A DNA stretch of 64,000 bases from Gammaproteobacteria bacterium (lineage in GTDB: Bacteria; Pseudomonadota; Gammaproteobacteria; Steroidobacterales; Steroidobacteraceae). A model generated the notes under the pieces. The model worked only from the letters and a program-made list of their open reading frames with translations, did no database searches and had not been told where the DNA came from. The DNA lies in assembly GCA_027459765.1 (NCBI GenBank), contig DAIDHD010000077.1:1-64000 (forward strand), written 5' to 3'. The translations under genes and the position numbers were made by a program. This document shows, piece after piece, positions 16,560 through 23,551 of this stretch; position 1 is the first letter of the stretch, and each line of letters opens with the position of its first letter.

Positions 16560-18389
16560 ATGGAGCAGAGTTCGAGGCAGCTTCACGTACGGGTGCGCGA
16601 GGTCAGCGAGCGGGTCCGCGAGCGCAGCCGCGGCAGCCGTGAGCAGTACCTCGAGCGCATGCGCGAGGCGCGCGAGCGCGGCACGCAGCGCGCGCGGCTG
16701 TCGTGCACCAATCTCGCGCACGGCTTCGCGGCCGCGGACGCGTCCGACAAGGCGGCGCTCAAGGCGTTGCGCTGGCCGAACGTCGCCATCGTCTCGGCCT
16801 ACAACGACATGCTCTCCGCGCACCAGCCCTTCGAGCGCTACCCGGCCATCATCAAGCGCGCCGCGCGCGAGGCGGGCGCGGTGGCCCAGTTCGCCGGTGG
16901 CGTGCCGGCGATGTGCGACGGCGTGACCCAGGGGCAGCCGGGGATGGAACTGTCGCTGTTCAGCCGTGACGTCATCGCCATGGCCACCGGCGTCGCGCTC
17001 GCGCACGCGATGTTCGACGCGGTGCTCTGCCTCGGCGTCTGCGACAAGATCGTGCCCGGCCTGCTGATGGGTGCGCTCTCGTTCGGGCAGCTGCCGGTGG
17101 TGTTCGTGCCGGCCGGCCCCATGCCCTCGGGTGTGCCCAACAAGGAAAAGGCGCGTGTCCGGCAGCTGTACGCCGAGGGCAAGGTCGGCCGCGATGCGCT
17201 GCTGGAGAGCGAGGCGGCGAGCTATCACGCGCCGGGCACCTGCACCTTCTACGGCACGGCGAACAGCAATCAGTTGCTCATGGAAGTCATGGGACTGCAC
17301 CTGCCGGGGGCGGCCTTCGTCCCGCCGAACACGCCGTTGCGGGACGCGTTGACCGCGGCCGCCACCGCCCGCGCCGCCGCCAGCACGGCACTCGGCGCCG
17401 AGTACCGGCCGCTCGCCGGGATCGCCGACGAGCGCGCCTTCGTCAACGCCGTGGTGGGCTTGCTCGCCACGGGCGGCTCGACCAACCACACGCTGCACCT
17501 GATCGCCATGGCGCACTGCGCCGGGATCGCGCTCAACTGGGACGACTTCAACGACCTGTCGGCCGTGGTGCCTTTGCTCGCACGCATCTACCCGAACGGC
17601 GCCGCCGACGTGAACCGCTTCCAGGCCGCCGGCGGCTGCGCCTTCCTGATCCGCGAACTGCTGGATGCCGGCCTGTTGCACGATGACGTGAGCACGGTGG
17701 TGGGAGCGGGTCTGCGCGCCTACACCCGCGAACCCTGGCTCGATGCGGGACGCCTCGCCTGGCGCGACGCTCCGGCCGTGAGCGGCGATCCCGACGTGCT
17801 GCGTGGCGTCGCCGCCCCGTTCAGCGACCACGGTGGCCTGCGGCTGCTCACCGGCAATCTCGGCCGCGCGGTGATCAAGACCTCGGCGATGGCGCCGGAA
17901 CACCACGTCATCGAGGCGCCGGCCGCGGTATTCGACGACCAGGAGGGCGTGCTGGAGGCCTTCCGGTCGGGCACGCTCGCGCGCGACGTCGTCGTGGTGG
18001 TGCGCTTCCAGGGCCCACGGGCCAACGGCATGCCGGAGTTGCACCAGCTCACCCCGGCGCTCGCCTCGCTGCAGTCGCGCGGCTTCAAGGTCGGCCTGGT
18101 TACGGACGGGCGCATGTCGGGCGCCTCCGGCAGCGTGCCGGCCGCCATCCACGTCACGCCCGAGTGCGCTTGCGGCGGGCCGCTCGCGCGCGTGCGCGAC
18201 GGCGATCCGGTCCGCATCGACTGCCACACCGGGGTGCTCGAGGCGCGCGTGCCGGAAGGCATCTGGTCGCAGCGCCAACCCGCCGCGCACGATCCGCGGG
18301 CGGCGGCGCACGGTTGCGGCCGCGAGCTGTTCGCGACGCTGCGCGGCGCGGCGCGCGCCGCCGAGGCGGGAGCGCTGACGCTGCTGTGA
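16560..18389 (+). CDS. edd: Phosphogluconate dehydratase
   Basis: Edd (609 residues) dehydrates 6-phosphogluconate to 2-keto-3-deoxy-6-phosphogluconate, the first dedicated Entner-Doudoroff step. It belongs to the IlvD/Edd family with an iron-sulfur cluster; the family features are [20 protein letters not shown]-like start, [55 protein letters not shown] and, near the C-terminus, [20 protein letters not shown]. The ilvD relative in this window (36488) is shorter and lacks the N-terminal extension seen here. edd is followed by eda after 35 bases and is divergent from zwf. Confidence 0.96.
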
Positions 18390-18424
18390 ACCGCCGGGGC
18401 ACGAGCCGGCAAGGAGCGACCTGA

Positions 18425-19063
18425 ATGAAGATCCGCGACATCCTCGCGCTGGCGCCGGTGGTGCCGGTGCTCACCATCGAGCGACTGGAGGACGCCGTGC
18501 CGCTGGCGCGGGCCCTGGTCGCCGGCGGACTGCCGGTGCTCGAGATCACGCTGCGCACCGAGGCCGCGCTCGCCGCCGTGAGCGCCATCCGCGCCGCCGT
18601 GCCCGAGGCCGTGGTGGGCGTGGGCACGCTCACCCGGCCGGCCGACTTCGCGGCCGCGGATCGCGTCGGCGCGCGCTTCGGCGTCTCGCCGGGCCTGACC
18701 CCGGAACTCGCCTCGGCCGCGCGCGGCGCACGCTTCCCACTGCTCCCCGGCGTGATGACGCCGACCGAGCTGATCGCCGGCCGCGCCGCCGGCTTCGAGG
18801 TGTTCAAGCTGTTCCCGGCGCAGCAGGCGGGCGGCGTCGAGATGCTCAAGGCGCTCGCCGGGCCGTTCCCGGACGCGCGCTTCTGTCCCACCGGCGGAAT
18901 CAGTCGAAGCACCGCGCCGGACTACCTCGCGCTTGCCAACGTGCTCTGCGTCGGCGGCTCGTGGGTGGCGCCGCGCGAGCGGGTGCAGGCACGCGACTGG
19001 GCCGCGATCGAGGCGCTGGCGCGCGACGCGGCGGCGCTGCGTCCGGCGCGCACGTCGGCCTGA
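18425..19063 (+). CDS. eda: KDPG aldolase (2-dehydro-3-deoxy-6-phosphogluconate aldolase)
   Basis: Eda (212 residues) splits KDPG into pyruvate and glyceraldehyde-3-phosphate. The catalytic Schiff-base lysine is K128 in [13 protein letters not shown]; the glutamate of the active site is in [11 protein letters not shown], and the phosphate-binding end is [15 protein letters not shown]. The fold is a single TIM barrel of normal length. The ATG follows AAGGAGCG and lies 35 bases after edd, so the two form an edd-eda operon, which makes the pathway from 6-phosphogluconate to triose complete here. Confidence 0.96.
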
Positions 19064-19137
19064 ACGCGCGCGCCGGCCGCAAATGCCGTAGCATCGCGGC
19101 TGCGAACCGGCGCCTCGCGCCGCACGGAGCGTGACGC

Positions 19138-20502
19138 GTGAAGGACTTGACGCAAGGGTCGATCGGCCGGCACCTCGCGGCCATGGCGCTGCCCATCGCT
19201 GCCGGCATGGTGTTCCAGACGCTGTATTTTCTGGTCGACCTGTATTTCGTCTCCGGCTTGGGTCCGGTGTCGCTCGCCGGTGTGAGCGCCGCGGGCAACG
19301 TCACCTTCGTCGTGTTCGCGGCGACCCAGGTTCTCAACATCGGCACCATGGCGCTGATCGCGCACGCCGCCGGGCGCAAGGATCGCGCCGAGGCCGGGCG
19401 CGTGTTCAACCAGGGCGCACTGCTCGCCGCGCTCCTCGCCGTGGCCACGCTCGCGGCCGGTTATCCGTTCGCGCGCCTGTACATGGGCACGCTCGGTGCG
19501 GATCCGGCCGTCACCGCGGCCGGCATCCGCTACCTCGACTGGTTCCTGCCCAACCTGGCGCTGCAATTTCCGGTGGCGGTGATGGGGGCTGCGCTGCGCG
19601 GCACGGGCATCGTCAAGCCGACCATGCTGGTACAGGCGTTCACCGTGCTGCTGAATGCGCTGCTCGCGCCCGTGCTGATCGCCGGCTGGGGCACGGGGCA
19701 CGCGCTCGGCGTCGCCGGCGCGGGCCTGGCGAGCTCGGGCGCGATCGCGGTCGGTACCGGCATGCTCGCCTATTACTTCTTGAAGCTCGAGAGCTTCGTG
19801 CGCTTCGACGCCCGCGCGCTGCGCCCCGACTTCGCGGCTTGGCGCCGCATCCTCGGCGTCGGTCTGCCCGCCGGCGGCGAGTTCGCGCTCATGTTCGTTT
19901 ACATGGGCCTGATCTACTGGATCGTGCGCCGGTTCGGCGCCGAGGCGCAGGCGGGATTCGGGGTCGGCATGCGCGTCATGCAGAGCCTGTTCCTGCCGGC
20001 GATGGCGGTGGCGTTCGCGGCGGGGCCCATCGTCGGCCAGAACTACGCCGCCGGGCACCCGGCGCGGGTGCGACGCACCTTCGCGACCGCGGTGCTGGTG
20101 ACCACGCTCATCATGGTGCCGCTCACTCTGCTGTGCCGCTGGCGCGGCGGGGTGTTCGTCGCGGTGTTCGCTGGGCACGGCGCGGCGCTCGAGGTGGGCA
20201 CGCAGTTCCTGCGCACCATCGCGCTCAATTTCGTCGCCTCCGGGTGCGTGTTCGCGTGTTCGGCCGTGTTCCAGGGACTCGGCAACACCATGCCGGCGGT
20301 GTTGAGTTCGGCGGGCCGCATCGTGAGCTTCGCCCTGCCGGCGCTCTGGCTTGCGTCGCGGCCGGATTTCACGCTCGCCGAGCTCTGGTACACGTCGGTC
20401 GCCAGCATGACCCTGCAGGCCGTGGCGAGCCTGTGGCTGGTTCGGCGCGAGTTCGCGCGCCGGCTGCCGGCCGCGTCCGCGCACCACGCGGCCGCGGCAT
20501 GA
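19138..20502 (+). CDS. MATE family efflux transporter
   Basis: A 454-residue multidrug-and-toxin-extrusion protein with about twelve hydrophobic segments. The N-terminus ([20 protein letters not shown], then [20 protein letters not shown]) and the internal repeat at mid-length ([20 protein letters not shown]) match the two homologous halves of MATE proteins. They export cations or drugs using a Na+ or H+ gradient; the substrate cannot be inferred. Translation starts at GTG 19138 with an upstream CACGGAGCGT. The stop overlaps the start of the next small membrane gene by ATGA, so both are coexpressed. Confidence 0.9.
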
Positions 20503-20779: not shown

Positions 20780-21415
20780 TCAGGCGGTGCCGGATCGGCT
20801 CCGGTGCCGCGCCTCGAGCTCCGCGACCACGGCGGCGAGCGACAGGCCGCGCGCCTTCAGCAGAAGAAGCGTGTGGTAGAGCAGGTCTGCCGCCTCCGCG
20901 GTGACGTCGGCGTCGCTCTGAGCCACTGCGGCGAGCGCGAGTTCCAGGCCTTCCTCGCCGACCTTCTGCGCCAGCCGTCGCGGCCCGTCGGCCAGCAGCT
21001 TCGCCGTGTAGCTGCCCTCCGGACGCTCGGCCATGCGCCGCTCGATCACCCGCTCCAGGGTGGCGAGGAAGGCGAGCGACGCACTCGCCGCGCGCGGCGG
21101 CTCGGCGCCGAAGCAGGTCGGTGTGCCCGTGTGGCACACCGGGCCCGCGGGGCGCGCGAGCACCAGCAGCGTGTCGCCGTCGCAGTCGAGCGCCACGTCC
21201 TGCACGGCGAGGCCGTTGCCGGAGGTCTCGCCCTTGGTCCACAGTCGCGCTCGCCGGCGGCTCCAGAAGGTCACCAGGCCGCTCGCGCGCGTCGCCTCCA
21301 GCGCCTCGCGGTTCATGTAGCCGAGCATCAGCACCGCACCGCTGTCCGCGTGCTGCACGATCGCCGGCACCAGTCCGTCGGCCTTGTCCCAATCCACCCG
21401 GGTCGCATCGATCAT
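20780..21415 (-). CDS. hisIE: Bifunctional phosphoribosyl-AMP cyclohydrolase / phosphoribosyl-ATP diphosphatase
   Basis: HisIE (211 residues) catalyses steps two and three of histidine synthesis. The HisI part has [35 protein letters not shown] and the zinc-binding CDGDTLLVL...GPVCHTG. The HisE part begins near residue 115 ([15 protein letters not shown]) and has [14 protein letters not shown] with [13 protein letters not shown]. It is the last gene of the his operon and overlaps hisF by four bases (ATGA). The order IE fused is typical of gammaproteobacteria. Confidence 0.96.
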
Positions 21416-22179
21416 GGTCGCACCTCGATGCCGTTGGCGCGCAGCTCGCGCTTGAGCGCACCGATCTTAATCTCGCCGGAGTGGAACACGCTCGCCGCGA
21501 GCGCCGCGTCCACGCCGGCGAGGGTGAATACCTGCGCGAAGTGTTGCATGTCGCCGGCGCCTCCCGACGCCACCAGCGGCACCCGGCAGACGCGCCGCAC
21601 GGCGGCGAGTTGCTCGATGTCGTAGCCGCGGCGCACGCCGTCGCTCGCCATGCAGTTGAGCACGATCTCGCCCGCGCCGCGCGCCTGCGCCTCGAGCACC
21701 CACTCGAGAGTCCGCCGGCCGCCGTCGCGCGTTCGCCGCACGTCACCGGTGTACTGCTGCACCCGATAATCCTCGCCGACCGTCTGGCTGTCGATCCCGA
21801 CCACCACGCACTGTGAGCCGAAGCGCTCGCTCAGGCGGTCGATCAGCTCCGGGTCCTCGAGCGCGGGCGAATTGACCGACACCTTCTCGGCGCCCGCGCC
21901 GAGCACGGCCTCGGCGTCGGCCACCGAACGGATGCCGCCGGCCACGCAGAACGGGATGTCGAGCACCCGCGCCACGCGCGCGATCCAGGTGCGATCGACG
22001 GTGCGTCCCTGCGGGCTCGCCGTGATGTCGTAGAACACGAGCTCGTCGGCGCCCGCGTCGCGATAGCGCGCCGCCAGCTCGAGGATGCCGCCGACCACGC
22101 GGTGATCGCGAAAGCGCACGCCCTTGACCACCTCGCCGTCGCGCACGTCCAGGCAGGGCACTATGCGTTTGGCAAGAAT
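21412..22179 (-). CDS. hisF: Imidazole glycerol phosphate synthase cyclase subunit, apparent ATT start
   Basis: HisF (255 residues if it starts at 22179) is the cyclase half of imidazole glycerol phosphate synthase. The family start, normally MLAKRIIPCLDV, reads [15 protein letters not shown] here, with ATT in place of ATG. A strong GAGGAG lies 8 bases upstream, exactly where it should be for that codon. Frame positions just upstream contain no ATG, GTG or TTG, and the next GTG (22161) would lie 26 bases from that site and remove the first strand. Other landmarks are [23 protein letters not shown] and [12 protein letters not shown]. It overlaps the hisA end by 19 bases and hisIE by 4. Confidence 0.9.
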
Positions 22180-22901
22180 GGCTGCAACTCCTCGCGGGTG
22201 ATGCGTCTCTCGAGCAGCGCCTTGCCGCTCACCGCGGCGGCGGCGCCGGTCGCGGCGAGCGCGTGCAGGTCGGCCGCGTCGCGCACGCCGCCGGAGGCCT
22301 GCCAGGCGATGCGCGGCTCGCGCCGCACCGCCTCGGCGTACAGGGCGACGTTGGCGCCGCCGAGCGTGCCGTCGCGGTCCACGTCGGTGCACAGCACGTG
22401 CGCGAGGCCGAGTCCGGCGTAGGGCGCCAGCGCCTCCCAAAGCGACACGGTGCTCTGTCGCGTCCAGCCGTCGGTGGCGACGCGCGGCACCTGCGCCTCG
22501 TCGAGACGCACGTCGAATGCGAGCACGACGCGCTCGGGGCCGAAGGTCGTCAGCCAACCGGCCACATCGCGCGGGGCGCGCAGTGCCAGGCTTCCCACCA
22601 CCACGCGCGCCGCGCCCAGGTCGAGCAGCTCGCGCACCGTCTCGCGGTCGCGCACGCCGCCGCCCACCTGCAGCGCGAGCCGCGCCGCGCCGGCGAGCGC
22701 GCCGATCAGCGCGCGATTGGCGCCGCGGCCGTCGCGCGCGCCGTCGAGGTCGACGACGTGCAGCCAGTCGGCGCCGAGCGAGCGGTAGTGCGCGGCGAGG
22801 GCGAGCGGCTCCTCCGGGTAGCGCGTCTCGGCGGAGAATTCGCCGCGCAACAGCCGTACGCAGCGGCCGTCCTTCAGGTCCATGGCCGGGATCAGGCGCA
22901 T
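22161..22901 (-). CDS. hisA: ProFAR isomerase
   Basis: HisA (246 residues) is the phosphoribosylformimino-AICAR ribotide isomerase, a TIM barrel. The first catalytic aspartate is in [14 protein letters not shown], and the second lies in [13 protein letters not shown]. Two phosphate-binding loops are [11 protein letters not shown] and [11 protein letters not shown], the duplicated half-barrel features of the HisA/HisF family. It lies between hisH (10-base overlap) and hisF (19-base overlap), fully within the operon. Its last codons encode the ribosome-binding region of hisF. Confidence 0.96.
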
Positions 22902-23551
22902 GCGCGTTCCGGCTGCGTGCGCAGTTTCAGGAAATTGCCGAGCAGCCGCGCGCTGACGGCGGCCGAGCGCTCGGGGTGGAATTGCACCCCGTGGAAGTTG
23001 CCCGCGCTGACGCAGGCGCTGAACCTGCCGCCGTAGTCGCAGACCGCGTCGGTGGCGGGGCCGGGCGGCGCCGCATAGCTGTGCACGAAATATGCGTACG
23101 GTAGCGCGCCGAGATCGCGCAGCAGGGGGGCATCGCGCAGCGACGCCACCTGGTTCCAGCCCATGTGCGGAACCGGCAGATCGCCCGCGGGCCGCAGGCG
23201 CTCGACCCGGCCGGGAAGGATGCCGAGGCAGGTGGTCGCGCCGCCGGCGCCTTCCTCGGACCCGTCGAACAGGAGTTGCATGCCGAGGCAGATGCCGAGC
23301 ACCGGTTGCGTGAGTTCGGGCAGCAGCCGGTCGAGGCCGCGCGCCCGCAGCCGGCGCATGGCGTCGGCCGCGGCGCCCACGCCGGGCAGCAGCACGTGCG
23401 TGGCGGCGGCGATGCGGCCCGGATCGGCCGAGACGGTGACGCGCGCGCCGAGGCGTTCGAGCGCGAAGCCGAGCGATGCCACGTTGGCGCCGCCGCTCTC
23501 GACGATCACCGCGTCGGTGTCCGCGGTCGCGGTTCCCGAGGAGCTGGTCAC
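22892..23551 (-). CDS. hisH: Imidazole glycerol phosphate synthase glutaminase subunit
   Basis: HisH (219 residues) is the glutamine amidotransferase partner of HisF. The catalytic cysteine is in [17 protein letters not shown], and the His-Glu pair is in [21 protein letters not shown] and YFVHSYAA are HisH landmarks. It begins at GTG 23551, overlapping the hisB stop by GTGA; this adds a short Ser/Thr-rich N-terminal stretch before [17 protein letters not shown] compared with most HisH. It overlaps the start of hisA by 10 bases. Confidence 0.94.

Follow-up and report, generated by a model that had tools for sequence, protein, structure and literature searches.

A putative AUU start codon of hisF, conserved in Steroidobacterales and probably held by an overlapping HisA codon

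What determines the first codon of a gene when that codon is also part of the gene before it? The question is raised by the histidine operon in a 64,000-nucleotide stretch of a Steroidobacteraceae genome (hereafter the window), in which, according to a preliminary description, hisF appears to begin with ATT on the minus strand, has GAGGAG eight bases ahead of it, and is preceded in frame by GCC, GCA, GTT, GGA and CGA – that is, by no ATG, GTG or TTG. All of this is borne out by the sequence: the minus strand around 22180 reads GCGAGGAGTTGCAGCC ATT CTTGCCAAACGCATAGTGCCC, the eight bases between GAGGAG and ATT are TTGCAGCC, and the hisF frame (ATT CTT GCC AAA CGC ATA GTG CCC TGC CTG GAC GTG) translates to full HisF. 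Coordinates are given in Table 1.

HisF has two matches in the genome (assembly 94.86% complete): the hisF of the window and HisA. Family cut-offs are passed by hisB, hisH, hisF and hisIE; the score of HisA is 1 bit below the TIGR00007 cut-off of 228.95. The genes upstream are presumably hisG, hisD and hisC, as named from their translations. Beside the operon, on the plus strand, are open reading frames (16560–20502) whose translations we take to resemble Edd, KDPG aldolase and a MATE-type transporter.

Table 1. Features of the hisA–hisF region of the window.
Feature	Position	Strand	Evidence
ATT, putative hisF start codon	22177..22179	-	sequence; ATT 141 and ATA 12 among 171 order genomes read
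hisF, 255 aa plus stop TGA	21412..22179	-	NCBIfam TIGR00735, 320.3 bits vs cut-off 294.55, residues 2–254
GAGGAG Shine-Dalgarno core, 8 nt before ATT; doubles as HisA Glu-Glu codons	22188..22193	-	sequence
hisA, 246 aa, stop TAG 22163–22161	22161..22901	-	open reading frame; TIGR00007, E 1.2e-67, 227.9 bits
hisA/hisF overlap, 19 nt; hisF in -1 frame relative to hisA	22161..22179	-	coordinates; hisA stop at +16 in 131/153 ATT/ATA loci
TTC, HisA Phe242, covering bases 2–3 of the putative hisF start codon	22176..22178	-	sequence
hisIE, ATG overlapping hisF stop (ATGA)	20780..21415	-	open reading frame; NF002747, 260.9 bits vs cut-off 187
hisH	22892..23551	-	TIGR01855, 194.4 bits vs cut-off 105.4

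A first set of 60 genomes yielded HisF in 49 (a fiftieth had a match at the level of HisA only), and a set of 246 genomes from the order yielded it in 211; combined, the two sets contribute 226 genomes with HisF. Among the matches listed, the start was read in 171 of the 226, the other 55 being mostly weaker matches. Codon 1 in these 171 genomes is ATT in 141, ATA in 12, ATG in 14, GTG in one and another codon in three, with near-identical genomes included in the counts. Three loci (L043, L044 and L049) have no start codon at this position (CCC, GCG and ACC) and carry an in-frame ATG 8–11 codons upstream. ATT or ATA is present in 9 of the 15 families read; neither occurs in the 27 class-level loci read outside the order (L052–L078, from the 38 out-of-order genomes matching at E 1e-60 or better), and 14 outgroup rows have an ATG start. 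Among 80 named loci, some of which may duplicate genomes of the order sample, 16 have ATT and two have ATA; these 18 are metagenome bins titled Gammaproteobacteria or Proteobacteria, with five exceptions (three Chromatiales, one Steroidobacteraceae and one Rheinheimera). Because the same codon is kept in relatives (ATT or ATA in 153 of the 171 order genomes read), sequencing error is excluded as the source of ATT.

HisF might nonetheless begin at a canonical codon elsewhere, either far upstream within hisA or, in the window, at the GTG of codon 7 (22161–22159). The frame of the window is open upstream to a TTG at 22557, 126 codons away and deep within hisA, and an in-frame ATG, GTG or TTG occurs upstream in 63 of the 153 ATT/ATA loci, 24–128 codons off and inside hisA. 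However, no upstream start can be common to all, because 86 of the 137 ATT/ATA loci with a visible in-frame stop upstream have no ATG, GTG or TTG between that stop and codon 1; in 36 ATT/ATA loci the stop lies at most five codons upstream, again with none of the three between. Comparison among relatives with the same overlap, as the preliminary description had envisaged, thus yields no common upstream start. The GTG at codon 7, for its part, is the first downstream start in one locus of 153 – the window – and its use would cut the first strand. Elsewhere the first downstream ATG, GTG or TTG is at codon 6 in one locus, at codon 10 in five, and in 146 of 153 either not found or at codon 12 or later, past D11: this residue, which we take to be the catalytic aspartate, is present in all 153, window included. 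Codon 2 was also considered as a start and rejected, being CTN (CTT, CTC or CTG) in 125 of the 153 and CCN in 28. A canonical start elsewhere is therefore very improbable. The chance is slighter still that HisF is made as a HisA–HisF fusion by -1 frameshifting in the overlap, a route for which the -1 frame of hisF and an A_AAC tetramer ahead of the window's hisA stop would be suitable (heptamers were sought by eye, in the window): just 69 of the 153 ATT/ATA loci have an AAAN tetramer, 63 have Arg as residue 4, and the start region of the window is not unusually folded, 193 of 200 shuffles folding at least as well (z +1.48, a value on which RNA structure was also set aside as a feature of the start). 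Codon 1 is thus the one place that fits a common hisF start, and we infer that initiation occurs there. Conservation across relatives lends strong support to an ATT start of hisF and to the view that this ATT is a trap for automatic annotation. The GTG at codon 7 of the window is likely to be taken for a start by gene callers.

Bases 2 and 3 of hisF codon 1, plus the next base, make up one HisA codon. Where the next base is C, ATT specifies Phe in HisA, ATA Tyr, ATC Ser and NTG Cys. In all 153 ATT/ATA loci hisA crosses codon 1 in the same frame, as established by script for 151 and by reading for L183 and L273. The residue that hisA encodes at this place is Phe in 141 of 141 ATT loci (139 by script, two by reading) and Tyr in 12 of 12 ATA loci. 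Under the plain script rule, by which a locus overlaps if hisA crosses codon 1 in frame, there are 161 overlapping loci: 153 with ATT or ATA and eight with NTG (one ATG-G specifying Trp, seven NTG specifying Cys). In the AlphaFold model of the window's HisA (mean pLDDT 94.5), Phe242 is the last residue of the last helix (236–242), in a final block that averages 83; a PDB sequence search with HisA returned solved HisA relatives, and the four alignments shown stop at residue 238, short of Phe242. The hisA–hisF junction of Escherichia coli (L137) resembles that of the window in hisA stop offset, in frame and, approximately, in the position of the Shine-Dalgarno sequence, but its ATG-TTG gives Cys-Trp in HisA (ACWQNA) where the ATT-CTT of the window gives Phe-Leu (PFLPNA). 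The outgroup HisA proteins, whose hisF starts with ATG, likewise have Cys-Trp at the start overlap or end at Cys.

If the aromatic residue matters, then the codon should depend on whether the aromatic site of HisA lies over it. Sorting loci by reading their HisA tails, which was done after the starts had been seen, places the aromatic site on codon 1 in 158 loci: 141 ATT/Phe, 12 ATA/Tyr, one Trp (L269, with ATG followed by G) and four NTG/Cys. The same sorting leaves 13 loci in which the site is not under codon 1, and among these ATT/ATA is found in none, ten having ATG at codon 1 and three an upstream start. Three of the 13 (L033, L035 and L223) were so classed because a longer HisA tail ends in Cys at the ATG and the aromatic residue lies upstream, in EAFLPD and EAYLPD tails. 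An aromatic residue (Trp, Tyr or Phe) is kept at the matching place, as judged by eye, in 12 of the 13 off-site tails (RQWLRG, VRWLAD, VRWLAA, RKWMRV, RRWLEG, RAYL, DAFLPG, EAFLPD twice, EAYLPD, PWLRG and PWLRA); the tail of L049 is ambiguous. The requirement is not absolute, because NTG with Cys occurs on site in L024, L046, L042 (where Trp follows Cys) and L244 (where HisA stops at Cys). HisA of two related Lysobacterales (L096 and L097) ends in Cys without an aromatic residue.

A further prediction concerns ATC, which should serve as well as ATT or ATA if selection acted on a weak hisF start alone. ATC was found at codon 1 in 0 of the 153 loci. In the same genes, Ile at codon 7, shortly after the place where hisA usually stops, is encoded by ATC in 74, ATT in 72 and ATA in 3 (n=149), and Ile codons at positions 8–94 are ATC in 516 cases, ATT in 232 and ATA in 60.

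Two other observations concern the overlap. Where codon 6 of hisF (22162–22164 in the window) specifies Ile among the 153 loci, 113 of 135 cases use the rare ATA, probably because this codon also carries part of the hisA stop: dual coding again. As for the position of that stop, it falls 16 nt beyond the first base of the start in 131 loci of 153, 4 nt beyond it in one and 28–52 nt beyond it in 21. In these 21 (L007, L011, L013, L159–L161, L163–L166 and others) the +16 stop is lost and HisA has gained tails such as SSPA.

A quick tree of 185 rows was built from partial HisA plus HisF; it contains long branches, and 68 of its 181 inner branches are open. On this tree ATT is clustered, and ATT/ATA versus the rest requires 12 changes; the ATA label requires nine gains or losses, at least five of them on starred branches, gain and loss not being told apart. 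Independent pairs contrasting site-on-start with ATT/ATA number four on starred branches and six on all branches. Over 200 pairings, 3.9 pairs on average go in the same direction and 0.0 in the opposite; with so few pairs the contrast is not significant (median P=0.125). Binomial and Fisher values take no account of relatedness and were given no weight as evidence.

The last Shine-Dalgarno 4-mer is 8 nt from codon 1 in 112 of 153 ATT/ATA loci, and 7–9 nt away in 146. The median Shine-Dalgarno:anti-Shine-Dalgarno energy of these 153 loci, -8.4 kcal/mol, is stronger than that of 15 NTG loci of the order (-3.3) and slightly weaker than that of 60 named NTG loci (-9.5), a comparison that led us to reject unusual compensation by the Shine-Dalgarno sequence at ATT/ATA loci. 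Re-initiation near a stop is described as coupling genes, and excess IF3 as repressing non-canonical starts (PMC2268962, PMC5472188). In one in vitro study, raising IF3 to 1.5 uM lowered to 31.1% the fraction of full-length product that arose from AUU with anticodon CAU (PMC10158994). IF3-sensitive, hisA-coupled initiation of hisF would be a likely consequence of an AUU within the overlap, and HisF output may be reduced or linked to IF3. Unusual control of initiation as in infC, which the preliminary description raised, is plausible.

Natural AUU or AUA starts are known for infC, pcnB, cvfC1 and ccpN. The start of infC is given as ATT in E. coli and ATC in Streptomyces (PMC5472188), and as AUA in Staphylococcus aureus, where cvfC1 and ccpN have conserved AUU/AUA starts that yield about 10% of AUG output in poor medium and up to 30%, for ccpN, in rich medium (PMC13009471). 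Streptomyces sigR has a conserved GTC start that was misannotated (PMC5472188), and in one reconstruction a single ancestral AUG start of 61,358 had switched to AUU (PMC5622118). The hisF start resembles that of infC in being a conserved, non-canonical AUN codon that is likely to be IF3-sensitive, and differs in that infC uses its start for autoregulation of IF3, whereas hisF is a biosynthetic gene whose codon is shared with an overlapping gene. With cvfC1, ccpN and sigR it has in common a start kept across a taxon and a strong Shine-Dalgarno sequence or ribosome-binding site; their starts, however, are tied to low expression or regulation, that of hisF to a residue in another frame.

The lineage appears, from sequence, to possess a second non-canonical start, of a known kind. 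Of 18 infC loci scanned, 13 are listed and provide the counts, with the start placed by us: in ten, the genome of the window (L294) included, ATC GCA stands at the expected start after GGAGG. One of the loci (L281) has GGAG instead of GGAGG, and another (L288) has a TTG two codons before the ATC. No such ATC start was seen in three of the 13 (L283, L284 and L298).

Why, then, has ATT been kept? Our hypothesis, which we consider probable, is that AUU persists because an aromatic residue of HisA is spelled by its last two bases and the C that follows. Under this hypothesis initiator tRNA-fMet would begin translation of hisF at AUU, in an operon whose hisA extends 19 nt into hisF. The TTC so formed encodes Phe242, the residue that closes the last HisA helix, and a canonical NTG followed by C would force Cys in its place; given that HisA of this lineage mostly keeps an aromatic residue at this position, presumably because fitness requires it, hisF would be confined to AUU (Phe) or AUA (Tyr). 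The strong and well-spaced Shine-Dalgarno sequence would offset so weak a codon, probably together with ribosomes that end hisA just downstream. Some of the conservation might be due to common descent alone.

The codon might alternatively be kept for regulation, as in infC: a weak, IF3-sensitive start would limit HisF or tie it to IF3, with the HisA residue a by-product. The order-wide conservation and strong Shine-Dalgarno sequence would fit such a role, as would the low output of the conserved S. aureus starts, and since infC appears to start with ATC in the genome of the window and in 9 of the 12 other loci listed, IF3-sensitive starts may be in use in the lineage. But ATC, apparently used by infC, is absent from codon 1 of the 153 hisF loci, ATT/ATA occurs in none of the 13 loci whose HisA site is elsewhere, and ATG-G, giving Trp, exists in L269: none of these follows from control of hisF alone, and we think regulation an unlikely reason. 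Somewhat less likely again is a neutral relic, in which ATT was fixed once by chance and inherited as good enough. The clustering of ATT on the tree and the ATG of the outgroup rows are what a relic would leave, and the overlap would make change harder; yet ATT to ATC is a single transition that is never seen among the 153, whereas the ATA label has changed repeatedly, and ATG, one base away, is uncommon as long as the genes overlap (7 of the 161 such loci).

Conserved non-canonical starts are already known; what is new is an order-wide one tied to the protein sequence of an overlapping gene. Among the open-access papers listed in literature searches we saw no report of a non-canonical hisF start, or of a start fixed by a residue of an overlapping gene. 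Whether dual coding accounts for the non-canonical codon throughout the order, with the HisA residue outweighing hisF initiation and hisF thus tied to hisA translation and to the level of IF3, is in our judgement evenly balanced. Natural AUU/AUA starts have been described for few genes, and hisF is a housekeeping gene that keeps one over much of an order. Its natural variants (ATA, ATG-G and lost overlap) act as a set of experiments on why ATT is kept. HisF may be truncated or mis-started in the annotation of this group, and overlapping genes suggest themselves as a place to seek further non-canonical starts. If the hypothesis is true, histidine synthesis in these bacteria would be linked to the state of the initiation machinery.
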